A stretch of 64,000 bases of DNA from an uncultured Tateyamaria sp. (GTDB lineage: Bacteria > Pseudomonadota > Alphaproteobacteria > Rhodobacterales > Rhodobacteraceae). A program made the translations under genes and the position numbers. Shown here in pieces: positions 321-63,251 of the stretch; within the stretch, counting starts at the first letter, position 1, and the number at the start of each line of letters is the position of its first letter. The stretch is from NCBI RefSeq assembly GCF_947487805.1, contig NZ_CANKXW010000002.1, positions 620,001-684,000 of the forward strand. Direction: 5' to 3'. A model generated the notes under the pieces. That model had not been told where the DNA came from, ran no database searches, and was given only the letters and a program-made list of their open reading frames with translations.

Positions 321-371
321 GGTCGGTGGGTGGGCGCCTTTTGCGTCAGCAAAACAGACCATCCCACCGGC
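321..371 (+). repeat. Two-tier hairpin repeat, copy A (kef/cobT junction)
   Basis: The outer arm GGTCGGTGGGTGG (321-333) pairs with 359-371, with one bulged T. After the fixed linker GCGCC (334-338) comes an inner hairpin, TTTTGC (339-344) and GCAAAA (349-354), around a GTCA loop, then CAGA (355-358). The same architecture recurs at 28450, 32071 and 52919. It sits between the stop codons of two convergent genes, and cobT stops at 372. Confidence 0.85.
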
Positions 372-28434: not shown

Positions 28435-28449
28435 CACCGACCCACAAGG

Positions 28450-28507
28450 GGTCGGTGGGTGGGCGCCTTTTGCGCCGGCAGGGCGCAAAACAGACCAGCC
28501 AACGACC
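28450..28507 (+). repeat. Two-tier hairpin repeat, copy B (DUF6476/tRNA-His junction)
   Basis: Outer arms 28450-28462 (GGTCGGTGGGTGG) and 28495-28507 pair with two mismatches. The linker GCGCC precedes a longer inner stem TTTTGCGCC (28468-28476) / GGCGCAAAA (28482-28490), then CAGA. Compared with copy A the inner stem is three base pairs longer and the loop is GGCAG. Confidence 0.85.
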
Positions 28508-28532
28508 AACAGTCAATCATTACATTTAGGGG

Positions 28533-28609
28533 TGGTACCACCTCCCCGGCTCGAACGGGGGACCTCCTGATCCACAATCAGGCGCTCTAACCTACTGAGC
28601 TAAGGCGGC
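28533..28609 (-). tRNA. tRNA-His (GTG)
   Basis: The 77-nt gene folds as a standard cloverleaf. The acceptor stem is GCCGCCT with AGGTGGT, the anticodon loop is TTGTGGA with anticodon GTG, the T-loop is TTCGAGC, and CCA is encoded. The base before position 1 is T, so no G-1 is encoded, and the discriminator is A73. This matches the alphaproteobacterial group whose tRNA-His lacks G-1, instead of the usual G-1:C73 pair. Confidence 0.97.
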
Positions 28610-32054: not shown

Positions 32055-32070
32055 CCAAAGCGCGCCCCAG

Positions 32071-32125
32071 GGTCGGTGGGTGGGCGCCTTTGACCGTCAG
32101 GTCAAACAGAGCCACCCACCGATCC
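32071..32125 (+). repeat. Two-tier hairpin repeat, copy C (pirin/tetR junction)
   Basis: This is the most symmetric copy. Outer arm GGTCGGTGGGTGG (32071-32083) pairs with CCACCCACCGATCC (32112-32125), needing only one bulge. The inner stem is TTTGACC (32089-32095) / GGTCAAA (32100-32106) around GTCA, then CAGAG. Its right half overlaps the last 24 bp of the TetR gene, so it encodes that protein's final residues. Confidence 0.88.
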
Positions 32126-32701
32126 CACCATCCGCCGCACCATCTGCCAATACTGGTCCTGCACCCGATCAAGGCTCAAGCGCCCCCCGGACCGAAACCA
32201 GGTGTTCACGCCCGTCAGCATTGCAATAACGGCCCACGTGGTCACTTTGGCATCCGCCACTGCGAAATCCCCGCGCGCCATCCCGGCGTCCAAAATGCGC
32301 TCCAGCACTCCCTCGTACCGACGCCGCAAGGTCTCGATCTCCGCGAAATTCTCCGGCTCGAGATTGCGCAATTCCATATATGCGATGAAAACCGCATCCG
32401 GCCGCTCGTGGTGAAACCCGATATGGAACCGCACGAACCGTTCCAACCGGACCACCGGCGCCGCCCGGTCATCGTCCTGAACGGCCGCCAACAACTCGAC
32501 CATGTGGTCCCGCATTAACTCTACCAGCAGGCTCTGCTTGTCAGGCGTATAATTGTACAGCGCCCCGGCCTGCACCCCCACTTCCTTGGCGATCTGGCGC
32601 ATGGACACGGCCGCAAACCCATATCGCGCAAAAAGCGTCAAGGCCGCCGCGCGAATGCGAGGGCCGGTGATGTCGGAATGAGAACCAGTGGTGCGCGCCA
32701 T
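32102..32701 (-). CDS. TetR/AcrR-family transcriptional regulator
   Basis: The 199-residue protein has an N-terminal TetR helix-turn-helix (about 12-60: IRAAALTLFARYGFAAVSMR, then VGVQAGALYNYTPDKQSLL) and a helical ligand domain. YNYTPDK is a variant of the usual Y-x-Y-F-x-x-K. Its regulon is unknown; the neighbour divergent from it encodes a small lipoprotein. The final residues (VGGSV) are encoded within repeat copy C. Confidence 0.9.
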   Translation of the reverse strand: MARTTGSHSDITGPRIRAAALTLFARYGFAAVSMRQIAKEVGVQAGALYNYTPDKQSLLVELMRDHMVELLAAVQDDDRAAPVVRLERFVRFHIGFHHERPDAVFIAYMELRNLEPENFAEIETLRRRYEGVLERILDAGMARGDFAVADAKVTTWAVIAMLTGVNTWFRSGGRLSLDRVQDQYWQMVRRMVGSVGGSV

Positions 32702-44980: not shown

Positions 44981-45258
44981 TGCATCTGCTCCCCACCGGG
45001 CAGGGCCGCGCGCGCCTGCATCGGCTGATCATAGGGCAGACCCGCCCTATCACAGAATTCCGTCACCCAGGCATCGTCCATCATTATGAAATCCAGCAAT
45101 GCACCAAGAAACGCAGGATCGGTCGCCCCGGCCCGCACATCCGCTTCGCTGGCGCCTGTCGCCCCGAGGAAAACGGGCAGCAACTCTTCGTTTCCGGCCA
45201 TCCACGTCAGCGCCTGCAGGCCCACAACTTCGGCGGTTTCTCGCTTCATCGACATCAC
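44971..45258 (-). CDS. DUF3572-family protein
   Basis: The 95-residue protein is recognised by EVVGLQALTWMAGNEELLPV and FLGATGASEADVRAGATDP, the DUF3572 pattern in alphaproteobacteria. Function is unknown, and it is predicted to be cytoplasmic and helical. It overlaps the HAD phosphatase by 10 bp, an order seen often in related genomes. Met4 (45249) is an alternative start. It is divergent from the PleD-like gene (92-bp gap). Confidence 0.85.
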   Translation of the reverse strand: MMSMKRETAEVVGLQALTWMAGNEELLPVFLGATGASEADVRAGATDPAFLGALLDFIMMDDAWVTEFCDRAGLPYDQPMQARAALPGGEQMHWT

Positions 45259-45350
45259 AAACGCTCCTTCACCGCCATTTGGAAACCCTTTGTTAACCTA
45301 AAGGGTCAAGAACCGATTACACACTCTTTGTTACGAATTGGAAATGTCGG

Positions 45351-46748
45351 ATGCATGGCAAGGTTCTGGTTGTTGATCCCATCGCTACAAATCGCATTGT
45401 GCTGCGGGTCAAACTGGCGGCCAGCCACTATGACATGGATCAAGCAGGCAGCATCGCCGACGCCATTCGTGCCATGGGCAAGAGCCGCCCCGATATCATT
45501 CTTTGTGCAGACACGTTGCCCGATGGCGGACCCCTCAAGCTGATGAACCGGATGCGCAAGGCGGGATTGCATGGCAAGGTGCCTCTGATTGTCCTTGGCA
45601 ATGGCTGTGACGGCGATACACGGATCCGGCTTTTGGGCGCTGGCGCCGAAGACGTGCTGGAAAAACCGCTCGACGACAGCTTTTTGCTGGCCCGGATCCG
45701 CAGCGTCATCCGTGCCTTTGCATCCGCAACGGAATGGAAGCTGCGCGACGGCACCTCGCGCGCGCTTGGATTTGCAGAGCCCAGCACGCAGTTTGGCCCG
45801 GCGCAATCCGTGCGCGTTGTTGCCCGAGATCAGGCCCGACTTGAAAGCTGGCGACCCGCCTTGTGCGAAAATACACGTGCCACGGTGGCAAGCTGTACCC
45901 CCGCAGCCGCCGTCGAACACCGCTCCAAGGACAAGGCCGCGGACGGTTTCGTGCTGGTCGTGGAACCGGATGCGAGTGCAGACATGCTTGGTCTGCTGGC
46001 CACGATCCGAAGCAACGCGAGCACGCGACACAGCGTCATCCTCGTGGTGCAGGTCGATCCCGACTGCAAGCTTGGCGCGCAAATGCTGGACATGGGCGCC
46101 AATGACGTCATGGCGTTCCACCGTGACCCATCCGAAGTCGCGTTGCGCCTCGAAACTCTGCTGGCACGCAAGCGCATGTCCGATGCGCTGCGCGACACGG
46201 TGCGCACCGGGATCGAGGCGGCGCTGATCGACCCGCTGACCGGGCTGCACAATCGACGCTATGCCATGCCGCACCTGGCCCGAATTGCAGACCGGGCAAC
46301 CCGGTCGGGCAGACCCTTTGCCGTCATGGTCGCTGACATGGATCACTTCAAAAAGATCAACGACACACACGGGCACGCGGCAGGAGATGCAGTGCTGGTC
46401 GACACTGCCCGCAGGCTGCGCGAGAACTTGCGCGCTGTTGATATGGTGGCTCGTATCGGCGGCGAAGAATTCCTGATTGTCATGCCTGGAGCGGGCCTTC
46501 AGGATGCCAAGAACGCCGCCCAGCGTCTGTGTCAGATCGTGCGGGACACGCCCTTTGAGGTGCCCGGTTCGTCCGCAGATGTCACCGCAACCATTTCCAT
46601 CGGAATGACAGTGTGCGATCCCGCGAAAACCGCGGCCCTGACCGTAGCTCACACACCCGAAAGCCTTCTCGACCGGGCGGACAAGGCGCTTTACGGAGCC
46701 AAGGCCAAGGGGCGCGATTGCGTCACGCTCAGCCGCCCGGCGGCCTGA
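45351..46748 (+). CDS. pleD: PleD-like diguanylate cyclase with degenerate first receiver
   Basis: The 465-residue protein has the PleD layout: receiver 1 (about 1-125), adaptor receiver 2 (about 150-290) and a GGDEF domain (about 295-460) whose active site is ARIGGEEF, with I-site RAVD five residues before it. Receiver 1 has VVDPIATN in place of the acidic DD pair. Where Caulobacter PleD has the phospho-accepting Asp (IILLD), this protein has Ala with an Asp shifted by one (IILCADTLP). The conserved Thr is also lost, while the KP motif (EKPLD) is kept. Ordinary phospho-activation is therefore doubtful. It is divergent from the DUF3572-HAD pair. Confidence 0.9.
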   Translation: MHGKVLVVDPIATNRIVLRVKLAASHYDMDQAGSIADAIRAMGKSRPDIILCADTLPDGGPLKLMNRMRKAGLHGKVPLIVLGNGCDGDTRIRLLGAGAEDVLEKPLDDSFLLARIRSVIRAFASATEWKLRDGTSRALGFAEPSTQFGPAQSVRVVARDQARLESWRPALCENTRATVASCTPAAAVEHRSKDKAADGFVLVVEPDASADMLGLLATIRSNASTRHSVILVVQVDPDCKLGAQMLDMGANDVMAFHRDPSEVALRLETLLARKRMSDALRDTVRTGIEAALIDPLTGLHNRRYAMPHLARIADRATRSGRPFAVMVADMDHFKKINDTHGHAAGDAVLVDTARRLRENLRAVDMVARIGGEEFLIVMPGAGLQDAKNAAQRLCQIVRDTPFEVPGSSADVTATISIGMTVCDPAKTAALTVAHTPESLLDRADKALYGAKAKGRDCVTLSRPAA

Positions 46749-46761
46749 ACGCAGCAGTGGC

Positions 46762-47244
46762 TCAGCGCTTGGGCCCGCCCTTTTTCCGGTCCGGGCCACG
46801 TCTCAATACATCCTTGATCCGCCCGGCATAGGCAATGCGCTCTTCATCCGACATCGCCGACACGATGGACAGCCATTCCGATTGCGCCCGTTTCTGAACA
46901 CGCGTGACCCCGTCGGCCTGGCTGGCAAGGACCGCCTCGATCGCAGGGACGTCCAGCGGCGTGGTCTGCAACGCGTCAATCATGGCATTGAATTGTGCAC
47001 GGCGATCCCTGCGGTTCGGCAGGGCATCATCCCGCCGGACCGCATTGAACACACCGCGCCGATCCTCGTGCGGCAGTGCCAGCACATAGGGCATGGCATA
47101 CCCCATTGCACCGGGGCCCTTGCCGCCCAAGGGGCCGCCGCGCAGGACAAAGCCCGCCACCAGCCCGATGATCGCAAGGTTCGCGGCGAGGGAGATCCCA
47201 AGCAAAAGCTTGATCCACAGCGGTGTTCCAGATGTATCGCTCAT
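46762..47244 (-). CDS. Periplasmic heavy-metal-sensor-like protein (CnrR/CpxP type)
   Basis: The 160-residue protein has one N-terminal membrane helix (about residues 9-33) and a periplasmic helical domain with charged heptad-like segments (NRRDRRAQFNAMIDALQ, AIEAVLASQADGVTRVQKRAQSEW), as in the heavy-metal-sensor/CpxP-like family. No metal-binding His/Met cluster is obvious. It is the last gene of a sigma-factor unit, starting 2 bp after the upstream stop. I chose the ATG 47244 over a TTG at 47250 that overlaps that stop. Basic C-terminus (DRKKGGPKR). Confidence 0.75.
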   Translation of the reverse strand: MSDTSGTPLWIKLLLGISLAANLAIIGLVAGFVLRGGPLGGKGPGAMGYAMPYVLALPHEDRRGVFNAVRRDDALPNRRDRRAQFNAMIDALQTTPLDVPAIEAVLASQADGVTRVQKRAQSEWLSIVSAMSDEERIAYAGRIKDVLRRGPDRKKGGPKR

Positions 47245-47246
47245 GC

Positions 47247-47618
47247 TCAACCCTCATCCCAATCCCAGCCGAAGGCATCAAGCCCGCCCGTTTCTTCAAA
47301 CAGGGTGTCATAGCCAAGCGACCAAAGCGCATCCGTACCGGTGGGGTCAATCCCACCCAGCCCAACCGCAAACCCGGTGGCCGCCGCGGCAACCAGACCG
47401 CCAACGGCGCCCCAACCGCCCAGTCCCTGAACCATCTGCTGCCACCAAGGCCGCGCCGGTCTGACACCGCCCGGGGCGGGCAACATCGTCTCCGCATCCG
47501 CAAGAACACGCGCCATCAGCTGCGGCGAAGGTGCCGCCACCGGCGCCTGCGCCAGATCGTCCAAGATGTCATCAAGCCAACGCGGATCCGATGGTTCGGG
47601 GGGGCGGTTCTGTGTCAT
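47247..47618 (-). CDS. Putative membrane anti-sigma factor-like protein
   Basis: From the ATG at 47618 (AAGGA about 10 nt upstream) the product is 123 residues. An acidic, proline-rich cytoplasmic N-terminus (SDPRWLDDILDDLAQAP) precedes one Gly/Ala-rich membrane helix (about 65-88) and a short acidic tail (GLDAFGWDWDEG). There is no HxxxCxxC zinc motif. Because it is encoded directly after an ECF sigma factor and before a periplasmic sensor-like protein, an anti-sigma role is the simplest guess, but I recognise no domain. A TTG at 47642 is a less likely start. Confidence 0.6.
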   Translation of the reverse strand: MTQNRPPEPSDPRWLDDILDDLAQAPVAAPSPQLMARVLADAETMLPAPGGVRPARPWWQQMVQGLGGWGAVGGLVAAAATGFAVGLGGIDPTGTDALWSLGYDTLFEETGGLDAFGWDWDEG

Positions 47619-47625
47619 CGCATGT

Positions 47626-48213
47626 TCATCCTTCGTATCCAAGGGCAGCGACCTGCCCTTTGAGTGCCTGTGCCAATGCCCGCTTGCCGCGCGCCGTGAG
47701 GCTTTCGACAGCCTCTGTACTGATGTCCAACCGCGCCGCGATCTCCGGGTTCGACGCCCCTTCGAAATGGCGCAGCATCACCGCGAGACGCTGGCGCTCC
47801 GGCAGTTCTGCCAAGGCGCGGCGCAATGCGTCGTGGCGGGCTTGCGTCTGCAATTGCGCTTCTGCCGATGGCGCAGGATCTTCGGGCTCTGCCGCCTCGT
47901 CCAGCCCAACCGGTCCGCGCGACCGTGCCCGCAGCCGGTCGGTGCACAGGTTGGCGACAACACGGTACAACCACGTCGTCACCTTTGCCTCGCCCGTCCG
48001 CCACTCCGGCGCAATCCGCCACAAGCGCATCATCGCCTCTTGGGCCACATCCTCGGCCGCTGCCTGATCGCCCAGCATCCGCATCGCCTGCGCATGGACC
48101 CGCGGCACAAGGCGCGCGGTCAGTGTCCGGGCCGCACCGGCATCACCACGCGCAAAGCGCGCCAAAAGCGCGGCATCGTCCGTCTGCGGATCCGTATCGA
48201 GCGGCATAGTCAT
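47626..48213 (-). CDS. ECF-type RNA polymerase sigma factor
   Basis: The 195-residue sigma-70-family ECF factor has region 2 (RMLGDQAAAEDVAQEAMMRLWR, then VTTWLYRVVANLCTDRLR) and region 4 (ELPERQRLAVMLRHFEGASNPEIAARL with the recognition helix near STEAVESLTAR). It is first in a three-gene unit with a single-pass membrane protein and a periplasmic sensor-like protein, a layout typical of envelope-stress control. A strong hairpin at 48233 separates it from the EF-hand gene upstream. Confidence 0.92.
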   Translation of the reverse strand: MTMPLDTDPQTDDAALLARFARGDAGAARTLTARLVPRVHAQAMRMLGDQAAAEDVAQEAMMRLWRIAPEWRTGEAKVTTWLYRVVANLCTDRLRARSRGPVGLDEAAEPEDPAPSAEAQLQTQARHDALRRALAELPERQRLAVMLRHFEGASNPEIAARLDISTEAVESLTARGKRALAQALKGQVAALGYEG

Positions 48214-48232
48214 CAAACCCCGGCTACCCCTG

Positions 48233-48259
48233 CCCTGCCCCTTATTGCAAGGGGCAGGG
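48233..48259 (-). terminator. Strong hairpin between the EF-hand gene and the ECF sigma operon
   Basis: CCCTGCCCCTT (48233-48243) and AAGGGGCAGGG (48249-48259) form a perfect 11-bp stem around a 5-nt loop. It lies 16 bp after the EF-hand stop. There is no T run, so it may slow RNA decay or attenuate read-through instead of being a full terminator. Confidence 0.55.
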
Positions 48260-48275
48260 TCTGAGGCGGCTGTGA

Positions 48276-48716
48276 TCAGTTTTTGGACTTGCGCTTACCA
48301 CGCATCTTGTCACGGGCCTCGGCGAATTCCTCTTCGCTGATGCCACCGCTTTTGTCCGCGTCCATACGTTCAAAGAACCGAGCGGGATCACGGCGCGGGT
48401 GTTTCAGTTCGTCCGCCGACAGTTTGCCATCCGCATTTGCATCCATGCGCTCGATCATCTTGGCGGCACGGTCTTCGGCACGACCCTTGGCCGCTTCGAT
48501 CAGCTCCGCCTCAGTCAGGAACCCATCGCCATCCGCATCCGCGCGGGCAAAGCGGGCATTCCCGGCCTCTTGCAGTTCGGCAAGCGAGATTTCACCGCTG
48601 TTGTCTGCGTCCAGCGTTGCGAAATCCGGGCCACCACGACCTGCCGCCATAGCAGCGACTGTGGAAATCCCGATGGCAGCTGCCGCGATACCTGCGATAA
48701 ATGTGCTTCGTTGCAT
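48276..48716 (-). CDS. Secreted EF-hand calcium-binding protein
   Basis: The 146-residue protein has a signal peptide (MQRSTFIAGI, hydrophobic core, cleavage near AMAAG) and four EF-hand loops: DADNSGEISLAE, DADGDGFLTEAE, DANADGKLSADE and DADKSGGISEEE. The acidic positions are mostly intact, so calcium binding is likely. It ends in a very basic tail (RGKRKSKN). It lies upstream of the ECF sigma operon on the same strand, separated by a hairpin. Similar EF-hand genes often sit beside heavy-metal-sensor sigma units in this family. Confidence 0.9.
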   Translation of the reverse strand: MQRSTFIAGIAAAAIGISTVAAMAAGRGGPDFATLDADNSGEISLAELQEAGNARFARADADGDGFLTEAELIEAAKGRAEDRAAKMIERMDANADGKLSADELKHPRRDPARFFERMDADKSGGISEEEFAEARDKMRGKRKSKN

Positions 48717-48914
48717 TTTGATACTCCGTTTTTTTGCCTCATGGCGCAGGTCCTTTTCTGCGCCGGGTACAGGTCAAACGGGGGGCCGTCGCATTTCCGT
48801 CGAAAAAAGTTTTGGCGTCACCAACGCGACATCGGGACGCAAGGACAGATTGCGGCATTCCGCTTTGCTGCACCAACCCCCAGTTTGGCGGCACCAATAC
48901 AGAAAGCTGTTCAC

Positions 48915-49322
48915 ATGCAGACCCAGTCAAATGCCGAAGTGGCACATTCCGAAGATGCCCGACACCCCGTCCGCCCTGCGTTGTGGCGCGGCTGGCGCAA
49001 CCGTTGCCCGCGCTGCGGGCAAGGCCGCTTGCTCAAGGGTTATCTCAAGGTGGCGCCCGGCTGCCCCGTTTGCAAACTCGACTATTCGCACCATCGTGCG
49101 GATGACGGGCCTGCATATCTGACGATCCTCTTGGTTGGGCACCTGATGGCACCGCTCTTGCACTGGGTCTTTGTCACATGGCGGCCCGAGCCCCTGGTGC
49201 TGTTCACCATTTTTGCGGTTGGCTGCGTGGGCTTGTCGCTCTACCTTCTGCCCAGGCTCAAAGGGGCCATTGTCGGCTTTCAGTGGGCGCGCGGCATGGG
49301 TGGTTTCGCCCGCGCCGGTTAA
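48915..49322 (+). CDS. DUF983-family membrane protein
   Basis: The 135-residue protein has the DUF983 signature: WRGWRNRCPRCGQGRLLKGYLKVAPGCPVC, a rubredoxin-like CxxC...CxxC pair, then the conserved HHRADDGPAYLTILLVGH and two membrane helices (about 65-88 and 95-113). Function is unknown. I use the ATG at 48915; the 198-bp gap upstream, between this gene and the divergent EF-hand gene, shows no other gene. A Nudix gene follows after 50 bp on the same strand. Confidence 0.88.
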   Translation: MQTQSNAEVAHSEDARHPVRPALWRGWRNRCPRCGQGRLLKGYLKVAPGCPVCKLDYSHHRADDGPAYLTILLVGHLMAPLLHWVFVTWRPEPLVLFTIFAVGCVGLSLYLLPRLKGAIVGFQWARGMGGFARAG

Positions 49323-49372
49323 ACACCGCGCCTTGCAGCGGGCCGGATCCAAGCACAGATCAGGGGCCCGCA

Positions 49373-50077
49373 ATGGCACAGGATATATCTCAGGACAAAT
49401 CGGCCATCCGCAACGCATCCACGGTGATCGTGTTGCGGGACCGGCATGTCGCACCGCGCATCCTGATGGGTCAGCGTGGGGCAAAGGCGGTGTTCATGCC
49501 GAACAAGTTCGTCTTTCCGGGTGGCGCGGTGGACGCGGGCGATCATCACGTACCGCTCGCAACCGCGGTAACGGCCCCGAATGATGCGCGCCTGCGCGAC
49601 GACAGCGCCACGGATCTGGGCTCGGCCCTCGCCGCAGCGGCCATTCGCGAGCTGTTTGAAGAAACTGGCCAGGTCCTGGGCACCAGGGACCACTGGCCCG
49701 ATGCACCGCCCGATTGGCAGGACTTTGCCGCGACCGGCCACCGCCCGCACGCCGCACCGTTGCAATTCGTGTTCCGCGCGTTGACCCCTCCGGGCCGCCC
49801 GCGCCGCTTCGATGCGCGATTTTTCCTGATCGACGCGGACACTCTGGCCTCTGACCCTGACGATTTTTCTGCGGCCTCTGACGAGCTGTCGCATCTGCAA
49901 TGGGTCGCACTGGACGACGTGCGGTCCTATGACATGCCGTTCATCACCGAAGTCGTCCTGAGCGAAATCGCCGCCCGCGTCACGGACCCGGCCCCCCCCG
50001 CAAGCGTGCCATTCTTCAAGAACAACGAAGAAGAAAGCCTGTTCTTGCGTCTGCGCGGCTACGCCCAGCCCGACTGA
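49373..50077 (+). CDS. Nudix hydrolase (NUDT7/NUDT19-like)
   Basis: From the ATG at 49373 the product is 234 residues. The Nudix core contains FVFPGGAVDAGD and the box portion AIRELFEETGQV (REx2EExG intact), with an insertion between the two halves as in coenzyme-A-type NUDT7/NUDT19 enzymes. This placement suggests an acyl-CoA or nucleotide-diphosphate substrate. It follows DUF983, an arrangement I recall from other Rhodobacteraceae. It converges on the EamA gene with a 6-bp gap. Confidence 0.88.
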   Translation: MAQDISQDKSAIRNASTVIVLRDRHVAPRILMGQRGAKAVFMPNKFVFPGGAVDAGDHHVPLATAVTAPNDARLRDDSATDLGSALAAAAIRELFEETGQVLGTRDHWPDAPPDWQDFAATGHRPHAAPLQFVFRALTPPGRPRRFDARFFLIDADTLASDPDDFSAASDELSHLQWVALDDVRSYDMPFITEVVLSEIAARVTDPAPPASVPFFKNNEEESLFLRLRGYAQPD

Positions 50078-50083
50078 TCCCCG

Positions 50084-50983
50084 TCAGATCACCGCGATCA
50101 GCATCAGAATGGACGCCAAAAGCACCGCCATGCCCAGCCATTCGCGCCCGCTGATCGCCTCGCGGAAGACCAGCACCGACGCCAGCGCGCTCAGGATCAA
50201 TTCGACCTGCCCGACCGCGTTGACATAGGCGGCGTTCTGCAAGGTGAAGGCCGTGAACCAGCAGAATGACCCGGCCATCGACATCAAACCGACCCAGACC
50301 GCTACCCGCCGCGCCCCCCAGACGGCACCGATTTGCCCCGGATCGCGCCACCGCAGCCAGATCAGCATCGCAATCGTCTGCATCGCCGTCACGACCGCGA
50401 GGGTCAGCCCGGCGCGTGCGAGCGGATCCTCAAGGTCAAGGCTCAACGACGCGCCGCGGTAACACACGCCCGAGACTGCAAAGAGCAATCCCGCCACCAA
50501 CCCGAGCCCTGCGGACGGGTTCGCCATGTCGCGCCACCCGAACCCGCGCCCGGGCGGGACCGACAGAAGGACCACGCCCACCAGCCCAAGTCCAATGGCC
50601 ATTAGGCCCCAACCGCTGACCGCATCTCCCAGCAGGACCCAACCAACCAAAACGGCCTGCATCACCTCGGTTTTCTTGAATGTGATGCCCACCGCAAAGT
50701 TGCGCGCCTGAAACAGGCGCACCGTGGCCACGGTCGCAAGGATCTGCGCCAACCCACCCAACATGCCAAAGCCCCACAAGGCAGGCCCAAACACAGGGAC
50801 GCTCTGCTCTGTGGCCCACAGGTAGATGCTGATCAGAACCGCCACGAGTGGCGCGGAATACACAAACCGCGCCAGCGTCGCGCCAGACGCGCTCAACGTG
50901 CCCAGCGACAACTGCCGTTGCAACATGAACCGCAACGTCTGAAAGAAGGCAGCGGCGAGTGTAATGGGAATCCAGAGGGTCAT
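50084..50983 (-). CDS. EamA/DMT-family transporter
   Basis: The 299-residue protein has about ten membrane helices in two EamA halves, with small and aromatic residues at helix ends, and a conserved NAAYVNAVGQVELILSALASV near the C-terminal half. Drug/metabolite transporters of this family usually export amino acids or other small metabolites by proton exchange. No substrate can be assigned. It stands between the convergent Nudix gene and the desaturase gene on the same strand (16 bp upstream). Confidence 0.85.
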   Translation of the reverse strand: MTLWIPITLAAAFFQTLRFMLQRQLSLGTLSASGATLARFVYSAPLVAVLISIYLWATEQSVPVFGPALWGFGMLGGLAQILATVATVRLFQARNFAVGITFKKTEVMQAVLVGWVLLGDAVSGWGLMAIGLGLVGVVLLSVPPGRGFGWRDMANPSAGLGLVAGLLFAVSGVCYRGASLSLDLEDPLARAGLTLAVVTAMQTIAMLIWLRWRDPGQIGAVWGARRVAVWVGLMSMAGSFCWFTAFTLQNAAYVNAVGQVELILSALASVLVFREAISGREWLGMAVLLASILMLIAVI

Positions 50984-50999
50984 GGCCCTCTATCCCGTA

Positions 51000-51929
51000 T
51001 CAGCGGTCGGAGGACCAGAGCGGATGCGGCACGCTGTCCTTGGCGCGCAGGAAATGACGGGCGAAAACCTGCATATAGGATCGATATCGATAGCCTTCGT
51101 TGCAGGCCAGGTACCGCGACGCACTGGCCCGGTAAAGCGCGGGCAAACGGTACCACGGCACCCGCGGATGCATGTGATGTACCACGTGGAAATTGTTGTT
51201 CAGAAACAGGAACGCCAAAAGCCCCCGATCCTCGATGATGACCGTGCGCCCGCGTGCCTTTTGATGCGCCTGATGCTCAAGGAACGTCCGGATTTTCAAT
51301 ACCGACAGCGCCCCGTAACACCCCAACAGATAGGCCCAGAACGGGATTGGCGCCCATACCACCAACATCAGCACCACGATGCATCCCGGCACATGCAACG
51401 CCCAACCCAGTGCCACCTGGCGATCGCCCATCCGCACAGCTTGCCAATCGCTCCGCATGAACATCACCTGCGCCAAGACGGGACCAATCAGCATCCGACC
51501 GGCCAGCGTGTTGTTGACCTCCAACAACACCCGCACCCATAGAGCGAGCCGCAGCCAGACCACGGGATCGAGGTAATTCGTCTCGGGATCATCGTAAGGA
51601 TCGGTGAGGTTGGCGTCCTGATGATGCGCCAGATGCGTGTCGCGAAACCGCAGATAGGGGATGAATAGCCCCGGATTGACGATGACCAAGGCCTCGCTGA
51701 GGCTGCGGGACGGAAAGGGGTGCCCATGCAGGACTTCATGTGTCAGCGACGCGTGCAAGACCAGCGAAACCGCCAGGACCAGGATGGCCAGAGGCAAGGA
51801 CACGGAAGGCAACCAAAGAATCGACGCACCCCAAGTCAGAATACAGGCGAGGAACAACGTCAGAGTGATCCATTCAACCACAAAGGGCCGTTCTGACGGC
51901 AGGTACCGCGTCGTCCGTTTACGATGCAT
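51000..51929 (-). CDS. Fatty acid desaturase-family membrane enzyme
   Basis: The 309-residue protein carries the three histidine clusters of the membrane desaturase/hydroxylase superfamily: THEVLHGHPF, THLAHHQDANL, and FHVVHHMHPRVPW. Four hydrophobic segments place the di-iron site on the cytoplasmic face. It may act on fatty acids or carotenoid-like lipids. I start it at the ATG 51929 (MHRKRTTRYL), since the upstream frame to 51971 adds a basic stretch with no support. It is divergent from the XRE regulator gene, which could control it. Confidence 0.82.
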   Translation of the reverse strand: MHRKRTTRYLPSERPFVVEWITLTLFLACILTWGASILWLPSVSLPLAILVLAVSLVLHASLTHEVLHGHPFPSRSLSEALVIVNPGLFIPYLRFRDTHLAHHQDANLTDPYDDPETNYLDPVVWLRLALWVRVLLEVNNTLAGRMLIGPVLAQVMFMRSDWQAVRMGDRQVALGWALHVPGCIVVLMLVVWAPIPFWAYLLGCYGALSVLKIRTFLEHQAHQKARGRTVIIEDRGLLAFLFLNNNFHVVHHMHPRVPWYRLPALYRASASRYLACNEGYRYRSYMQVFARHFLRAKDSVPHPLWSSDR

Positions 51930-52048
51930 TGCGTGCGGTTTCCTTTCACGGGCGTGTGGGCGTACCGTCAAACCCTAGCGATGCATCGCCCTGCTGCGCA
52001 GTTGGCAAGTGGTTAACAAAGACCGCGTTTCGTGATATTTGTCACCAC

Positions 52049-52909
52049 ATGGTAGGAATTATCGACAAACGAGACCGCGCTGCCCAGTTCCGCCAGCGGC
52101 TGGCCGCGGCAATGCGTGAACAGAAAATGTCGCAAAGCGCACTGGCCCGAACGATCGGTACGGACAGATCAACGGTCAGCCAAGCCCTTGCCGATGACGG
52201 CGCCCGCCTGCCCGGCGCTCAGACCGTCGGGGCCTGCGCCCAGGCCTTGGGCGTGTCGGCTGATTGGCTTCTGGGCCTCTCCGACCGCCCCGAAAGCGCC
52301 GCCGCTCTCACAGCCGCGGCCCTCACCCTGACCGAAGCCCCCCGTGCCCTGATTGATGAACGTATCTTTGGTTGGCACCAGGAGGCCGCAGGCTACAAGA
52401 TACGCCATGTGCCCGCCGGGCTGCCCGATATGCTCAAGACCAACGCCATGCTGGAATGGGAATACGGGCCTCATCTTGGCCGCACCACGACCCAGGCGAT
52501 CAACGCGTCCAGGGACCGCCTGAACTGGATGCGCAGCGCGCAGTCCGACTACGAGATCGCCCTGCCCCTGCACGAACTGGACAGTTTCGCCACCGGCACC
52601 GGCTATTACTCAGGCTTGCCCAAACACATCCGCGCCGACCAGCTGAATCAACTGCTCACCCTCAGCACACAGCTCTATCCGAGGCTCCGCCTCTACCTTT
52701 ATGACGCCCGCATGCTCTATTCCGCGCCCATCACGGTCTTCGGCCCGCTGCTTGCCGTGATCTACACCGGCGGCCACTACATGGCCTTTCGAGACCGCGC
52801 GCGCATCGAAACCCTGTCGCTCCATTTCGACGATCTTGTACGGCGCGCGGCCTTTACCGCTCGCGATATCCCCGATCACGTCGAAACCCTGCGCCGCAAA
52901 ATGACATAG
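52049..52909 (+). CDS. XRE-type helix-turn-helix regulator with C-terminal effector domain
   Basis: From the ATG at 52049 the product is 286 residues. The N-terminal Cro/C1-type HTH (about 12-70: RLAAAMREQKMSQSALARTI, TDRSTVSQALAD) is followed by an unrecognised domain of about 200 residues with aromatic residues and a conserved-looking YLYDARMLYSAPITVFGP. This resembles regulator proteins with a built-in sensor domain rather than phage repressors. It is divergent from the desaturase gene and ends 9 bp before repeat copy D. Confidence 0.85.
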   Translation: MVGIIDKRDRAAQFRQRLAAAMREQKMSQSALARTIGTDRSTVSQALADDGARLPGAQTVGACAQALGVSADWLLGLSDRPESAAALTAAALTLTEAPRALIDERIFGWHQEAAGYKIRHVPAGLPDMLKTNAMLEWEYGPHLGRTTTQAINASRDRLNWMRSAQSDYEIALPLHELDSFATGTGYYSGLPKHIRADQLNQLLTLSTQLYPRLRLYLYDARMLYSAPITVFGPLLAVIYTGGHYMAFRDRARIETLSLHFDDLVRRAAFTARDIPDHVETLRRKMT

Positions 52910-52918
52910 CGCCAAACG

Positions 52919-52969
52919 GGTCGGCGGGCGGGCGCCTTTGCCGTCAGGCAAACAGAGCCGCCCCCGACC
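52919..52969 (+). repeat. Two-tier hairpin repeat, copy D (XRE/SDR junction)
   Basis: Outer arms 52919-52931 (GGTCGGCGGGCGG) and 52957-52969 pair fully except for one bulge. The inner stem is TTTGCC (52937-52942) / GGCAAA (52947-52952) around GTCA, followed by CAGAG. The two T-to-C changes in the left outer arm are met by matching G/C changes on the right. It ends directly at the SDR stop codon. Confidence 0.86.
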
Positions 52970-53716
52970 TCACAGCTTGGGATCAGGATTCTCCGTATGG
53001 CAGTCCACCGCGATCACCTGCCCAGACACGCGCCGCGCGGCATCTGATCCAAGAAACACCGCCATATCCGCAATGTCCGAAGCCTCCACAAAACTGCGCA
53101 TCGACGTGCCCTGCGCATAGCCCGCATATACCGCGTCGCGGGTCATGCCCTTGGCCGTCGCCTCGCGCGCCAGAACACCCTCCATCCGCGCGCCTTCCAC
53201 AGCACCGGGGCAAATGGCATTTGCCCGCACGCCAAACGGCCCAGCTTCCATCGCGACCGTCTTCATCAACCCGATCACGGCCCACTTCGCCGCCGCGTAA
53301 GGCGCGCGATTGGGATAGCCATATATCCCGGCCGTCGACGAGGTGAACACAATACTGCCCTGCCCCGCGGCCTTCATCGCGGGCAACCCATGCTTGACCG
53401 CAAGGAACGCCCCTTCGAGATTGACCGACACACAGGCCCGCCACTCCGCGAGGTCGACATCCTCAACACGCGCGGTCGGGCCCGCAATGCCGGCATTGGC
53501 ACAGAGCACATCCAATGGGCCCGCCGCTTCCATCACCGCCGCAACGCGTGCCTCGTCCGCCGCATCGCACAAATGCGCGTTCCAGGATGCGGGCACCTTC
53601 TCCAGGGCGGCGGCATCGACATCCGTCACCCGAACCGAAAACCCAGCAGCCTCAAAAGCGTGCCCCATGGCAAGGCCGATCCCCGACGCGCCTGCCGTGA
53701 CCAGAACACGCTTCAC
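52970..53716 (-). CDS. Short-chain dehydrogenase/reductase of the carnitine operon
   Basis: The 248-residue SDR has TAGASGIGLAMGHAF (NAD(P)-binding glycine motif), NAGIAG, catalytic Ser in VFTSSTAGIYG, and YAAAKWAV with catalytic Tyr and Lys. Its GTG start at 53716 overlaps the TGA of the carnitine dehydrogenase gene (GTGA), so it is translationally coupled. It probably oxidises or reduces a hydroxyl intermediate in carnitine or related metabolism. It is the last gene of the operon and abuts repeat copy D. Confidence 0.85.
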   Translation of the reverse strand: MKRVLVTAGASGIGLAMGHAFEAAGFSVRVTDVDAAALEKVPASWNAHLCDAADEARVAAVMEAAGPLDVLCANAGIAGPTARVEDVDLAEWRACVSVNLEGAFLAVKHGLPAMKAAGQGSIVFTSSTAGIYGYPNRAPYAAAKWAVIGLMKTVAMEAGPFGVRANAICPGAVEGARMEGVLAREATAKGMTRDAVYAGYAQGTSMRSFVEASDIADMAVFLGSDAARRVSGQVIAVDCHTENPDPKL

Positions 53717-55200
53717 GGCCGCTGCCCCACAGCGCGCCCCGCACCGTCGGGTCGGGGCAAATCCGCATGCGCGCCCGACACACGGGCAAGTGCGGCCAAA
53801 ATCGCCTCCGACGGGTCGGACGGACGGCGCGTCTCAAGGCTCACATGCAGCAGGAAATGTTCTCCCGTAGCCAGCAAACGGTCCCCGTCGTACATCTCGT
53901 GGAACAGATGCAGCTTCTTGCCAGCGCCCGCCAGCACCTGCGTCCGCACCTCGATTAAAGTGCCCGCCAGGGCCTCATCCACGTGTCGGATATGCGTCTC
54001 GGCCGTGAAATAGCTGCCCCCCGTCGCGATATAGGCCGCATCACAGCCCACCATCTCCATGAACCGGTCCGTCGCGTCGCCAAAGGCCTGCAAGTACCGC
54101 GCTTCGTTCATGTGACCGTTGTAATCCGTCCAATCAAGCGGCACCGCACGCCGGACCGTCAGCAACGGGGCGGATACATCCTCCAGCTCATCCAGATGCG
54201 CGCCCAGCACCGTACCGGCGCGCAAGCTCGCCTCATGGGCGTTCATCACCGCGCCAGCACCCCAATCATTGGCCTTGAGACTGCGCATCATGCCGACAAG
54301 GTTGTCGTCGCGCGCGCGCAACATCTCCGAGATGGTCATGTGCCCGGACTGCGCATCGGACTGCCCCGCGATCAGGTCCACCAATTCGTCGGTAAACTCA
54401 GGCACATCCATGAGCTTGGTCCACGGCCACTGTAGCGCCGGACCAAACTGCGCCATGAAATGCCGCATCCCCGCTTCGCCACCCGCCGTTCGGTAAGTGT
54501 CGAATAGCCCCATCTGCGCCCAGCGAATGCCAAACCCCATGCGGATGGCCTCGTCGATCTCTTCGGTGGTGGCGACCCCGTCCTTGACCAGCCACAGTGC
54601 TTCGCGCCACACGGCCTCAAGAAACCGGTCCGCAATATGTGCATCAATTTCCTTGCGCACGCGCAGCGGATAATGCCCAAGCGACCGCAGGATACCTTCG
54701 GCCTTTTCCACCAAAGCTAAATCCGTCGCCGGTGACGGAACCACCTCAATCAGCGGCATCAAATACACGGGGTTGAAGGGGTGGCACACCATGATCTGTT
54801 CCGGTCGCGTCGCACATCCCTGCAACTGCGATGGCGTGAACCCGGAGGTGGAAGAAGCCAGGATCGCGTCAGGCGACATCGCCGCCTGCGCCGTCTGGTA
54901 GACCTTGCGCTTTAACTCCAATCGCTCAGGCACGCTTTCCTGGACCCAAATCGCACCGTCGACCGCTTCGGACATGGTATCGCAAAAGGTCAACCGCCCT
55001 TCGGAAGGCAGGGCCACATCCGTCAGGCTGGGCAAGGCCCGCCGCGACTGCGCCAGAACCGGCGCCAACTTTTCCTCGGCCTGCGGGTCCGGATCAAACA
55101 CCCGCACATCCCATCCATTTAAAAGAAACCGCGCGGCCCAGCCGCCACCAATAACGCCGCCACCGATGATGGCCGCCGTCTTCACTGTACCTTGTTCCAT
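53713..55200 (-). CDS. lcdH: L-carnitine dehydrogenase fused to a hotdog thioesterase
   Basis: The 495-residue protein joins two enzymes. Residues about 1-320 form a 3-hydroxyacyl-CoA dehydrogenase-type NAD domain (IIGGGVIGGGWAARFLLNG, STSGFTPSQLQ, HPFNPVYLMPLIEVV), as in L-carnitine dehydrogenase. Residues about 345-475 form a 4HBT hotdog thioesterase (DWTDYNGHMNEARYLQAFGDATD). The dehydrogenase makes 3-dehydrocarnitine, and the thioesterase should release glycine betaine from betainyl-CoA made by the BKACE enzyme upstream. Fused LcdH-thioesterase proteins are known in rhizobia. Its ATG is inside the lipoprotein gene (19-bp overlap). Confidence 0.9.
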   Translation of the reverse strand: MEQGTVKTAAIIGGGVIGGGWAARFLLNGWDVRVFDPDPQAEEKLAPVLAQSRRALPSLTDVALPSEGRLTFCDTMSEAVDGAIWVQESVPERLELKRKVYQTAQAAMSPDAILASSTSGFTPSQLQGCATRPEQIMVCHPFNPVYLMPLIEVVPSPATDLALVEKAEGILRSLGHYPLRVRKEIDAHIADRFLEAVWREALWLVKDGVATTEEIDEAIRMGFGIRWAQMGLFDTYRTAGGEAGMRHFMAQFGPALQWPWTKLMDVPEFTDELVDLIAGQSDAQSGHMTISEMLRARDDNLVGMMRSLKANDWGAGAVMNAHEASLRAGTVLGAHLDELEDVSAPLLTVRRAVPLDWTDYNGHMNEARYLQAFGDATDRFMEMVGCDAAYIATGGSYFTAETHIRHVDEALAGTLIEVRTQVLAGAGKKLHLFHEMYDGDRLLATGEHFLLHVSLETRRPSDPSEAILAALARVSGAHADLPRPDGAGRAVGQRP

Positions 55201-55676
55201 GTGTCCGTCCGGTATCCGTTGAAATCCAAAACCTGCCGCGCCGCCGTCACCTGATCACGCCGCACGCTGTCTGTCCGCGTCACCACAAAGCCAAAGTCGC
55301 CCTCAGGCGTGCCCAGCGCTGCCGTACGATGATCGGGGTCGATCCACACGACCCAGATATCGCGCTGCACGCCGTCCTCATATGTGACGCGCAATATGCC
55401 CGGCGCACGCAGATTGATGCGCCCGTGCGCAGGCCCGGCGCCGCAGACCTCGCGCCAGTCCATACTGTCAGCGTCAACCGAAAAACGCGTCAGGATCCAC
55501 GCCCCGCCCGCACTCTCCCGCACCTGCCAGTCACCCGCGAACGCGCCCAGGTCAAATCGGGAAATCGCGCCGATCGGCACCGTCGGATTGCGCAATGGCA
55601 GCTCAAAGGCCTCCTGCGGCGCAGGCGCACAGGCGCCAAGCGCCAACCACAACAGCAGAGCGCGCGCCGCCCTCAC
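55182..55676 (-). CDS. Lipocalin-like lipoprotein inside the carnitine operon
   Basis: The 164-residue protein has a signal peptide with lipobox (LALGACAP), so the mature protein starts at a lipidated Cys. The rest looks beta-rich with a lipocalin-like opening, DLGAFAGDWQVRESAGGAW, and a closing Trp (DTWNKVQ). The start is GTG at 55676, overlapping the TGA of the BKACE gene. Its 3' end overlaps lcdH. An envelope lipoprotein in the middle of a cytoplasmic catabolic operon is odd; a ligand-binding role is inferred only. Confidence 0.7.
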   Translation of the reverse strand: MRAARALLLWLALGACAPAPQEAFELPLRNPTVPIGAISRFDLGAFAGDWQVRESAGGAWILTRFSVDADSMDWREVCGAGPAHGRINLRAPGILRVTYEDGVQRDIWVVWIDPDHRTAALGTPEGDFGFVVTRTDSVRRDQVTAARQVLDFNGYRTDTWNKVQ

Positions 55677-56587
55677 CCCTTGGGGGCCTGCTTGGTCAAG
55701 CCCAATTTGGCGCGGACCTCATCCGGGCCAATGACCCGCGCACCCATGTTCTCGATGATGGTGCCCGCACGCTCGACAAGCTGCCAGTTCTGCGCCAGCT
55801 CTCCCTTGCCCAGCCACAGATTATCCTCAAGCCCCACGCGAACGTTGCCCCCCGCCAGCACAGCCGCCGCCACATAGGCCATCTGATTGCGTCCAAGCGC
55901 AAATGCGGAAAACGTCCAGTCCTCGGGCACATTGTTCACCATCGCCATAAATGTGTTCAGGTCATCCGGCGCGCCCCATGGCACACCCATGCACAGCTGC
56001 ACCAGCGCAGGCGCATCCAGAACACCATCCTTCACCAACTGCTTGGCATACCAAAGATGCCCGGTGTCAAAGGCCTCGATTTCCGGCTTGACCCCAAGCC
56101 CGGTCATCATGCGCCCCATTGCCGTCAGCATGCCCGGCGTGTTCGTCATGACATAATCAGCCTCGGCAAAGTTCATCGTGCCACAGTCCAGCGTGCATAT
56201 CTCCGGCAGACACTCCGCCACATGCGCCACACGTTCCGTGGCCCCGATCATGTCAGTGCCTGCGTTTTTCAGCGGCAAGGGGGCCTCGACATCTCCAAAC
56301 ACCATGTCGCCCCCCATACCCGCGGTCAGGTTCAACACAACATCGACATCCGCATCCCGGATGCGATCCGTCACCTCGCGGTAGTAAGACAGGTCGCGCG
56401 ACGGCGCACCTGTCTCGGGGTCGCGCACGTGGCAATGAACAATCGCCGCCCCGGCCTTGGCCGCCGCGATCGCGCTGTTGGCAATCTGCTCGGGGCTGCG
56501 CGGCACATGCGGACTGCGGTCCTGCGTGCCCCCAGACCCGGTCACGGCACAGGTGATAAACACCTCACGGTTCATCGACAAAGGCAT
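55673..56587 (-). CDS. BKACE-family beta-keto acid cleavage enzyme (3-dehydrocarnitine cleavage)
   Basis: The 304-residue DUF849/BKACE TIM-barrel enzyme has the zinc motif AIVHCHVRDPETG (two His), CAVTGSGG at the start, and a downstream SLDCGTM-like DCGTMNF. BKACE enzymes condense acetyl-CoA with a beta-keto acid and cleave it. In carnitine pathways they turn 3-dehydrocarnitine and acetyl-CoA into acetoacetate and betainyl-CoA. Operon context with LcdH-thioesterase supports that substrate. It is first in the operon and divergent from the GlxA/CdhR-type regulator with a 71-bp gap. Confidence 0.88.
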   Translation of the reverse strand: MPLSMNREVFITCAVTGSGGTQDRSPHVPRSPEQIANSAIAAAKAGAAIVHCHVRDPETGAPSRDLSYYREVTDRIRDADVDVVLNLTAGMGGDMVFGDVEAPLPLKNAGTDMIGATERVAHVAECLPEICTLDCGTMNFAEADYVMTNTPGMLTAMGRMMTGLGVKPEIEAFDTGHLWYAKQLVKDGVLDAPALVQLCMGVPWGAPDDLNTFMAMVNNVPEDWTFSAFALGRNQMAYVAAAVLAGGNVRVGLEDNLWLGKGELAQNWQLVERAGTIIENMGARVIGPDEVRAKLGLTKQAPKG

Positions 56588-56658
56588 CTGCGGTCTCCTT
56601 GCGTTTTTTCACACATTGGCGAGAATTCCATGTCAACCTTGGCAAAAAGCGAAGTGAT

Positions 56659-57603
56659 ATGGCAAAAACCGAAATTCTCGTCCTGCAAAATACGAACACC
56701 CTGTCTCTCGCCGCGGCGGTGGACCCGCTGCGCGCCGCAAACCGTCACAGCCGGCGGCACGCGTTTGACTGGCGCTTTGCCACGCCCGACGCCCGGGATG
56801 TCGTTCTCACCAGCGGCCTTACCGTTCCGGCGGCCCCGGTTCACCGCGTGACCGACTGCGACGTCCTGATCATCGTGGCGGGATTTGATCTGCAGTCCCA
56901 GGCGACACCGCGCCTCATGGCCAGCCTCCGGCGTCTGAACCGATCCGGCACGCGCATTCTGGCGATCGACGGCGGGCCCTGGATTGCCGCAAAGTCGGGC
57001 ATCCTGAACGGCCACCGCGCCACCACGCACTGGGAAGACCTGACCGCGTTTTCCGAAACCTTCCCCGAGGTGCACGTCGTCAATGCCCGCTACGTGGTAT
57101 CAGACCGCCTCTGGACCAGCGGCGGCGCGGCCCCGGCCCTCGACATGGTGCTGCACCTGATCGCAACTGTCCACGGCGCGGGCCTTGCGCAAGCCGTGGC
57201 GGCCAGCTTCATTCACACCCATCACCCGGATGCGTCGGAACCACAGTTGCGCCACCCGCCAGCCCACCGCCATACCCGTATCACGGCGCGGGCGCATCAC
57301 CTGATGGAAGCGCATCTCGACCAGCCACTCCCATTGCCGGACATCGCAGGCAGGCTCGGCCTGAGTGCGCGCACGCTGCAACTCCACTTCCGACGGACGT
57401 TAGGCACGACGGCCAAATCCCACTACCTCGGCCTCAGATTGGCCGAAGCACAGCGGCTGTTGCTGCACACCGACACCCCCTTGCAGGACGTCGCCCTCGC
57501 CACAGGCTTTCCTGCGGTGGCCAGCCTCACACGCGCCTACACCAAGACCTACGGTACGCCACCGAGCAGCGCCCGCACCGCCAGCATAACGGGGTCGGCC
57601 TGA
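56659..57603 (+). CDS. GlxA/CdhR-family AraC-type transcriptional regulator
   Basis: From the ATG at 56659 (MAKTEILVLQ) the product is 314 residues. An N-terminal DJ-1/PfpI-like domain (about 1-175) lacks a convincing catalytic Cys and probably acts as effector sensor. The C-terminal AraC helix-turn-helix pair (about 215-312) includes LPLPDIAGRLGLSARTLQLHFRR split over two helices and QDVALATGFPAVASLTRAY. CdhR, the carnitine regulator of Pseudomonas, is of this type. Divergent position next to the carnitine operon supports control of it. Confidence 0.88.
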   Translation: MAKTEILVLQNTNTLSLAAAVDPLRAANRHSRRHAFDWRFATPDARDVVLTSGLTVPAAPVHRVTDCDVLIIVAGFDLQSQATPRLMASLRRLNRSGTRILAIDGGPWIAAKSGILNGHRATTHWEDLTAFSETFPEVHVVNARYVVSDRLWTSGGAAPALDMVLHLIATVHGAGLAQAVAASFIHTHHPDASEPQLRHPPAHRHTRITARAHHLMEAHLDQPLPLPDIAGRLGLSARTLQLHFRRTLGTTAKSHYLGLRLAEAQRLLLHTDTPLQDVALATGFPAVASLTRAYTKTYGTPPSSARTASITGSA

Positions 57604-57612
57604 ATTCTTCTT

Positions 57613-57631
57613 CCTTCCCCCGAGGGGAAGG
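57613..57631. repeat. Short GC hairpin between regulator and aldo-keto reductase genes
   Basis: CCTTCCCC-CGA-GGGGAAGG is a perfect 8-bp stem with a 3-nt loop, in the 78-bp gap between convergent genes. No T run follows on either strand, so a terminator role is uncertain. It does not share the two-tier architecture of copies A-D. Confidence 0.5.
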
Positions 57632-57681
57632 CCAGGTAGGGGGTCACCGGCAATCACGTGCACCGCAGGTGCGCAAGGGGA

Positions 57682-58725
57682 TCAATACGGCATCGGATGG
57701 GCCCGGTGGGCGGCATCCAGATCGGCCAGCACCTCCCCGTCCAACTCCAGGTCGGCGGCACCCAGCGCCACCTCCAGCTGATCCATCGACGTGGCCCCAA
57801 AAATCACCGAACACATGAAGGGCCGCGTCATGCACCAGGCCAGCGCCATCTGCACCGGGTCCAGCCCGTGCTTGCCCGCTACCCCCAGATAGGCATCCAC
57901 CGCCTCAAAGGCCCGCTGCGTCTTGCGCCCGCCCAGATCCGCATTCAGCGACAGACGCGATCCCTCGGGCACCGCACCTGCCTGATACTTGCCCGTCAAA
58001 AGACCTGCCGCCAAAGGCGAAAACGCCAACAGCCCCACGTCCTCGTTCACGCCCAGCTCGGCCATATCCGTGTCATAAAGCCTGCACATCAGCGAGTATT
58101 CGTTCTGCGTGCTTGCGACGCGCGGCCCGCCCGTGCGTTCTGCGGCGGCCAGCCACTGCGCAGTACCCCATGCGCTTTCGTTTGACAGGCCAAATGCGCG
58201 GATGCGCCCGCGCGTCACCTCGTCCTGCAACGCACCCAGGCAGTCTTCCATGTTCTGGCGCACCGCGACCGGGTCCTGCCCGCTGGGATCATGGGTCCAG
58301 TTCTTTCGAAACATGTAGCTGCCGCGATTGGGCCAATGAAACTGGTAGAGGTCGATGTAATCGGTCTGCAACCGGCGCAATGATCCCTCGATGGCCTCCG
58401 GAATGCTCTGCGCCGTGATCGGCGCACCGCCGCGCACGTGGCGCATGCCCTCGCCGGAATGCTTGGTGGCCAGCACCAGATCATGGCGCGTGCCCCCTTT
58501 TTCCAGCCACAGCCCGATGATCCGTTCGGTGCGGCCAATGGTGGCCTTGCTGATCGGGTTGACCGGGTACATCTCGGCGGTGTCGACAAAATTGATGCCC
58601 GCCGCGATGGCGCGGTCGATCTGCGCATGCCCCTCTGCGGCGGTGTTCTGGGTGCCCCATGTCATGGACCCCAGGCACAAGGCCGATACTTCGATATCCG
58701 TGCGGCCAAGTCTGCGTCGTTCCAT
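57682..58725 (-). CDS. Aldo/keto reductase (Tas/YajO-like)
   Basis: The 347-residue AKR barrel has the catalytic set: Asp and Tyr in NFVDTAEMYP, Lys in LVLATKHSGEG and His in LYQFHWPNRG. The NADP-binding C-terminal SVIFGATSMDQL segment is also present. Length and extra loops match the Tas group of NADPH-dependent aldehyde reductases. The substrate is unknown. It converges on the GlxA-type regulator and is divergent from imuA by 127 bp. Confidence 0.88.
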   Translation of the reverse strand: MERRRLGRTDIEVSALCLGSMTWGTQNTAAEGHAQIDRAIAAGINFVDTAEMYPVNPISKATIGRTERIIGLWLEKGGTRHDLVLATKHSGEGMRHVRGGAPITAQSIPEAIEGSLRRLQTDYIDLYQFHWPNRGSYMFRKNWTHDPSGQDPVAVRQNMEDCLGALQDEVTRGRIRAFGLSNESAWGTAQWLAAAERTGGPRVASTQNEYSLMCRLYDTDMAELGVNEDVGLLAFSPLAAGLLTGKYQAGAVPEGSRLSLNADLGGRKTQRAFEAVDAYLGVAGKHGLDPVQMALAWCMTRPFMCSVIFGATSMDQLEVALGAADLELDGEVLADLDAAHRAHPMPY

Positions 58726-58821
58726 GGGTTTTCTTCCTTGTCAGTGTCTTATGCGGACCCTAGCGGCGCGGTCCTGACGGGCAAGTTAAATTTCCAGTTG
58801 GCATTGTCAGAGAATTATTGA

Positions 58822-58836
58822 GAACATATGGGGAAC
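58822..58836 (+). promoter_or_regulatory. LexA (SOS) box upstream of imuA
   Basis: GAAC-ATATGGG-GAAC (58822-58836), which reads GTTC-N7-GTTC on the other strand, is a perfect alphaproteobacterial LexA site. It ends 16 bp before the imuA start codon. Confidence 0.88.
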
Positions 58837-58852
58837 ATGTATATTCCAAACC

Positions 58853-63237: not shown

Positions 63238-63251
63238 TCAAGCCCGTTCGA

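Follow-up and report, generated by a model that had tools for sequence, protein, structure and literature searches.

A chromosomal hairpin repeat of Rhodobacteraceae that lies at gene 3′ ends and is oriented with replication

Several described systems share features with the repeat analysed here. KOPS are octamers of duplex DNA found on the leading strand. The Ter sites of the Tus-Ter and RTP fork traps do not need a hairpin. REP hairpins carry alongside a conserved tetranucleotide of the GTAG or GGAG type, and the CCUCCUCCC ('cuckoo') sRNAs of alphaproteobacteria are structured and C-rich on one strand. To our knowledge, bacterial signals oriented by replication (KOPS, Chi, Ter) are recognised either as duplex DNA or by an enzyme travelling along it, and we know of no dispersed fork trap in this bacterial group. 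A structured, covarying repeat that follows the fork and ignores the flanking gene would tie nucleic-acid folding to the direction of replication.

The window, that is the whole stretch of 64,000 bases analysed (G000:C2:620001-684000), contains four hairpin copies, all on the + strand. A sequence-only reading had proposed four copies with differing yet paired inner stems, and both positions and stems are as it gave them. The limits below are those of the covariance-model matches.

Copy A: 319-374, + strand, hairpin with inner stem TTTTGC/GCAAAA; a + strand ORF stops at 308 and cobT (PF02277), on the - strand, ends at 372.
Copy B: 28448-28510, + strand, hairpin with inner stem TTTTGCGCC/GGCGCAAAA; a + strand ORF ends upstream at 28434 and a tRNA-His gene lies downstream on the - strand, 28536-28609.
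Copy C: 32069-32126, + strand, hairpin with inner stem TTTGACC/GGTCAAA; a pirin gene on the + strand ends at 32054 and a TetR-family gene lies on the - strand.
Copy D: 52917-52972, + strand, hairpin with inner stem TTTGCC/GGCAAA; an HTH gene on the + strand ends at 52909 and an SDR gene on the - strand ends at 52970.

A search for GGTCGGYGGGYGGGCGCCTTT with up to three mismatches gave four matches in the window against 0.04 expected from 100 shuffles, and in the predicted fold of every copy two stems are stacked about an internal loop (z -3.5 to -6.6). The outer arm of copy D has two T-to-C changes, both of which had been read as matched on the other side; in the predicted fold this holds for the second, pyrimidine (Y) position, while the other C is bulged, at a position where copy C has a paired T. 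The stop codon of the TetR-family gene (32102-32104) lies within the inner stem of copy C, where hairpin and coding sequence overlap. Upstream of copy B, CACCGACCC (28435-28457) could form an alternative hairpin by pairing with the beginning of the 5′ arm; no such pairing was noticed at the other three copies.

An exact pattern found 18 copies in the whole genome (reversed control, 0). The covariance model built from these 18 gave 28 matches at E up to 1 (0.006 to 0.16 for the last five); four more came from a model of a second sub-type, for about 32 in total (C1, two -; C2, 16 +; C3, five +; C5, six -; C8, two +; C9, one -). Covariance search of 61 relatives recovered the element in 19 of 20 genomes of the same genus, Tateyamaria (not G019; G018 has 30 copies), in two of 17 other family members (G021 and G025) and in none of 24 genomes from other bacterial families. 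Within a family-wide set of 246 genomes, 30 matched model R2 and 38 model R3 at E 1e-4, and 208 gave no match under strict filters with few candidates scored. Among named records at least 107 stretches bear the element, mainly from Tateyamaria and Mameliella, but also from Roseobacter, Tropicibacter, Arenibacterium, Pseudoponticoccus, Albimonas and others. A pattern match in an Immundisolibacter MAG (L170) was not among the model hits and was taken as chance; another, in Sagittula (L138), matched the model weakly.

The element is found on the 3′ side of cobT in 18 of the 20 genus genomes compared (absent from that locus in G013 and G019), with stems that differ but pair, and whole inner stems are replaced between orthologous sites. 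At the copy D site, next to the orthologous SDR gene, seven of 10 genomes carry an intact element, one an apparently interrupted one and two none. The interrupted orthologue (L207, in G009) seems to be broken up between GGGTG and GGCGCA by a segment resembling a hairpin. Plasmid and phage collections gave no match to copy D as single query, and spread by plasmid or phage was rejected on this result. On our best reading, the element is a structured repeat that belongs to the chromosome of Rhodobacteraceae and is inherited for the most part vertically.

Least probable among the alternatives we considered is a mobile element of REP/RAYT or IS200 type, single-stranded and non-autonomous, with the lagging-strand template as its insertion target. 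Insertion of this kind would give strict fork polarity as well as the hairpin form, according to the portions consulted of PMC6006769 and PMC8266576. This reading is already weakened: the site common to 18 of 20 species is orthologous, the single-query search of plasmid and phage collections was empty, and the Y1 transposase PF01797 was detected at E 0.001 in only four of 20 genus genomes (three of them over the cut-off), neither in the genome studied nor in the 30-copy G018. With the transposase absent from 16 of 20 genus genomes, REP/RAYT was rejected. A flanking tetranucleotide of REP type was likewise missing, with 0 conserved bases in the 12 positions on each side of 147 elements.

The element measures about 55 bases and consists of a 5′ arm GGGTCGGYGGGYGGG, CGCC, TTT, a variable stem and loop, AAA, CAGA or CAGT, and a 3′ arm. 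The 5′ arm is G-rich and nearly invariant; the 3′ arm pairs with it yet varies. The second sub-type, GGGACGGYGGGYGGGGCGCC-TTT..AAA-CAGCGCC.., was the form of 17 of the 20 loci retrieved from 16 other genera and coexists with the first in the genome studied. In six species the loop at the cobT locus takes a third form, with CGAA and GAGA or GAGT instead of CGCC and CAGA. We collected 154 distinct pattern matches, of which seven were excluded before counting because their inner stem was not clear. In the 147 elements left, Watson-Crick pairs fill 1,007 of 1,024 inner-stem cells, and the left arms come in 46 different sequences. The covariation score exceeded all 500 shuffles in each of three alignments (A2, A5 and A6; A5 omits L138, L181, L186 and L187 by choice) and also all slid pairings, and the covariation first seen in four copies is real; the count of pairs changed on both sides is weaker in A6, where 23 of 500 shuffles reach it. 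The accompanying claim that the folded form, not the sequence, is kept did not survive, because almost every base of the 5′ arm is conserved: GGGTCGGYGGGYGGGCGCCTTT and AAACAG hardly change, and it is the inner stem and the 3′ arm that vary.

Quasipalindrome template switching makes imperfect repeats perfect, and covariation could be its by-product with no selection on the fold. Replacement of whole inner stems at orthologous sites would fit this. Against it, the internal loop remains an imperfect, conserved feature, reading CGCC with CAGA or CAGT in 126 of 147 elements, and the rarer CGAA form with GAGA or GAGT differs on both sides together; we consider this explanation very unlikely.

Which strand folds was approached through wobble pairs. 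Inner stems contain 10 G.T and no A.C among the 1,024 cells, six of the 10 falling on the fixed TTT. The outer Y-R pair, counted in the 91 of 147 elements with right arm [GC]CC[AG], is CG in 65, TA in 20, TG in six and CA in none; among the 56 right arms left out of this count, four have C at Y and CCAGC or CCACC, where the pairing is ambiguous. A.C-type cells do occur in the alignments (5 against 101 G.T in A5; 11 against 33 in A6, many of the latter in the ragged outer stem). The G-rich strand is predicted to fold better than its complement in 120 of 147 elements as RNA and in 135 of 147 as DNA. The wobble pairs thus moderately favour a fold of the G-rich strand, with some contrary cells, and part of the bias is inherent, given how little the 5′ arm varies. 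The G-runs are nearly invariant and the left arm has a G4Hunter score of 1.56. Across sub-types in A6, positions 5-67 (AU 12, UA 3, 11 unpaired) and 13-58 (CG 14, UA 5, 7 unpaired) covary; therefore pairing is kept too, beside a possible G-quadruplex.

We then compared gene context with that of other gaps of at least 40 bases in the same loci. The 144 de-duplicated copies, elements lying 300 bases or more from a locus end and including orthologues that are not independent events, fell into 92 convergent, 21 +/+, 24 -/- and three divergent gaps, as assigned by a custom gene caller; the remaining four overlap a called gene (three convergent, one +/+). The background comprised 62 convergent, 157 +/+, 171 -/- and 162 divergent gaps. 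Four -/- cases were read by hand, and copy B is wrongly among the 24, its + strand ORF having been overlooked by the caller. Copies hug stop codons on either side and often fill the whole convergent gap, as at copy A, where it is filled from stop to stop (308 to 372). Gene-directed orientation was rejected, +/+ and -/- being about equally common (21 and 24). The element thus sits at gene 3′ ends, and its orientation is independent of the adjacent gene. At L011 and L017 a shared palindrome, CTGTCCCCGCGGGGACAG, lies just downstream of the element; it also occurs as TGTCCCCGCGGGGACA in convergent gaps.

An intrinsic terminator, GC-rich stem then T-run, does not describe the element: flank composition of the 147 elements showed no T-run downstream of the hairpin when read in the G-rich direction and, in the opposite direction, a weak one (about 40% T-equivalent over 3-4 positions). 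A terminator scan of 45000-64000, a range that contains only copy D, did not call it. These results weigh on a reading in which the element acts in head-on transcripts, as a terminator or 3′-end structure read only as G-rich RNA that stops transcription against the fork. The G.U-type wobbles on the G-rich strand speak for it, as does a head-on gene upstream of 117 of 144 copies by the gene caller. Yet for 24 copies, copy B wrongly included, all neighbours are co-directional, a number close to that of the +/+ class and in line with background; the wobble carriers L077 and L175 are of this kind; and the T-run is missing in the G-rich direction, copy D not being called a terminator in the scan of 45000-64000. 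We regard this reading as unlikely.

Orientation follows replication, not the neighbouring gene. Among 150 copies listed, 29 of 30 contigs with at least two copies show a single orientation. Orientation was also uniform within contigs for 88 matches in six genomes and for 67 matches in six genomes (three shared with the former set), one switch on G003:C1 excepted. We used parS, present twice per genome in 20 genomes, as origin marker. On parS-bearing contigs of 11 Tateyamaria genomes, 45 of 45 copies among the matches listed point towards parS: 13 in G003, nine in G018, five each in G004, G012 and G015, three in G013, one each in G001 and G010 and, among the matches listed, at least one each in G005, G007 and G016. 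G003:C1 (3,861,636 bases; treated here as a circular chromosome) has parS at 3.305 Mb and a strand change of the KOPS-like octamer GGGCAGGG between 1.40 and 1.45 Mb; four - copies lie at 0.42-0.88 Mb and nine + copies at 1.74-2.91 Mb, so that 13 of 13 agree with both parS and the GGGCAGGG switch. GC skew in G003 agrees in 18 of 20 sampled stretches (wrong sign in L245 and L255).

The same held in other genera, where 15 of 17 contigs with at least two copies are uniform among the matches listed. The two others, G164:C1 and G174:C5, contain both orientations; in each, GGGCAGGG and GC skew change over in the interval that separates the - from the + copies, with the sense seen in G003. Sign changes thus occur on three contigs, each of a different genus, and always where GGGCAGGG changes too. 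G164:C1 and G174:C5 both cross the terminus, which strengthens the polarity and has no bearing on mechanism. In 20 loci and the window, GGGCAGGG is the most strand-skewed octamer, as expected for KOPS, and lies on the strand opposite to the element 71 times against eight on the same strand. Element-strand GC skew was negative in 21 of 21, 79 of 80 and 20 of 20 stretches (some copies are in more than one set; the 80 are taken from the at least 107 element-bearing stretches). The sole wrong sign among the 80, +0.043, is that of L108 (Tateyamaria sp. ANG-S1 contig_1); local noise, an inversion or an extra replicon are candidate causes. It follows that forks from the origin have the G-rich strand as their leading-strand template, whereas forks running back have it as their lagging-strand template.

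Copies are also scarce near the origin. On parS contigs of ten genomes (G005, G007 and G016 left out), one of 42 copies lies within 0.3 Mb of parS against 14.5 expected, and 15 of 42 within 0.6 Mb against 24.3. In a five-genome set, which excludes G001 and its copy at 0.19 Mb, the figure within 0.3 Mb is 0 of 35 against 9.6 expected, with one copy at 0.3001 Mb. G001, G005 and G007 have copies at about 0.2 Mb from parS. A simple rise in density towards the terminus was not seen and only the gap at the origin is strong; the 1.06 Mb sampled at 1.6-2.0 Mb from parS held one copy, and densities far from parS rest on few contigs.

Polarity could also be left behind by an orientation filter. The element would then be an ordinary bidirectional 3′-end hairpin, a terminator or stabiliser of mRNA 3′ ends, whose other orientation is deleted or broken more often, the lost orientation being the one in which the lagging-strand template carries the G-rich, more stable hairpin. 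The better folding of the G-rich strand agrees with this, as do convergent gaps that can be filled from stop to stop (308 to 372, for example). So do hairpins other than the element in convergent gaps, which lean the same way (27 against 11, two equal, n=40), although some of them resemble decayed copies; part of the polarity may thus reflect a general filter. The 45 of 45 among the matches listed is nevertheless far stricter than 27 against 11, and the near-invariant 5′ arm requires sequence-specific selection. Furthermore, another hairpin family in the same material is not replication-polar (four same, seven opposite, a small sample of 11 copies). This different 3′-end hairpin, roughly AAATACYTCGGGGGTYYGGGGGCTGGCCCCC, was observed at L040, L077, L084, L160, L174, L253, L255 and L257. 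We rank the filter as a close second, possible though on the unlikely side.

Our first preference, still a tentative one, goes to a chromosomal, fork-polar structured site that doubles as a transcript boundary. We read its position as set by gene ends and its orientation by the fork, with the 5′ arm held in sequence and the inner stem in structure. The sequence-only reading was in part borne out; it had missed the orientation set by replication, the placement at gene 3′ ends and the related sub-types. Function and mechanism we infer throughout. The element would act when the G-rich strand is single-stranded, or would be recognised by a protein in a manner that depends on the fork. As a polar replication site it would let forks from the origin pass easily; for forks running towards the origin it would be restrictive, or would serve as a signal for restart or handling. 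The same hairpin would separate the transcripts of convergent genes. A bolder proposal, to which we give rather little credence, is a new class of fork-polar DNA element whose folded G-rich strand is the signal, possibly through a choice between hairpin and G-quadruplex; passing forks from the origin and stopping or marking returning ones, it would form a dispersed fork trap on both chromosome arms. The copies and their orthologues provide ready natural sites for work on fork-polar barriers and on the sharing of convergent gene ends between replication and transcription.

We recognised no description of the element in the literature searched, a scope outside which most subscription journals fall. 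The sequence-only reading had not recognised it as a named RNA or repeat family; in Rfam, the window and seven loci match only tRNA at gathering score; the best sub-threshold match at copy A reached 9.6 bits against 37 needed, and a known RNA family was rejected. The 'cuckoo' sRNAs differ in motif and loop, and the element is without Rfam match. Like REP/BIME palindromes with RAYT, the element is an intergenic imperfect palindrome at gene ends; unlike them it is fork-oriented, present in tens and not hundreds of copies, and found in genomes of which 16 of 20 lack PF01797. With bidirectional intrinsic terminators it shares a hairpin between convergent stop codons, and it differs by the missing T-run in the G-rich direction, the conserved arm sequence and the fixed polarity. 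KOPS/AIMS, the FtsK-orienting octamers (e.g. GGGNAGGG; see the portion of PMC7901474 on dif and KOPS), are also repeated, replichore-polar, G-rich and chromosomal. The element, in contrast, is a 55-base hairpin mostly between genes, on the opposite strand, and its polarity runs not from ori to ter but towards ori, opposite to GGGCAGGG. From Ter sites it is set apart by being a hairpin and by copies that reach 0.2-0.3 Mb from parS. It resembles them, as in Tus-Ter, in having one polarity per replichore and some tens of copies at most, in an orientation that would suit the stopping of forks leaving the terminus.
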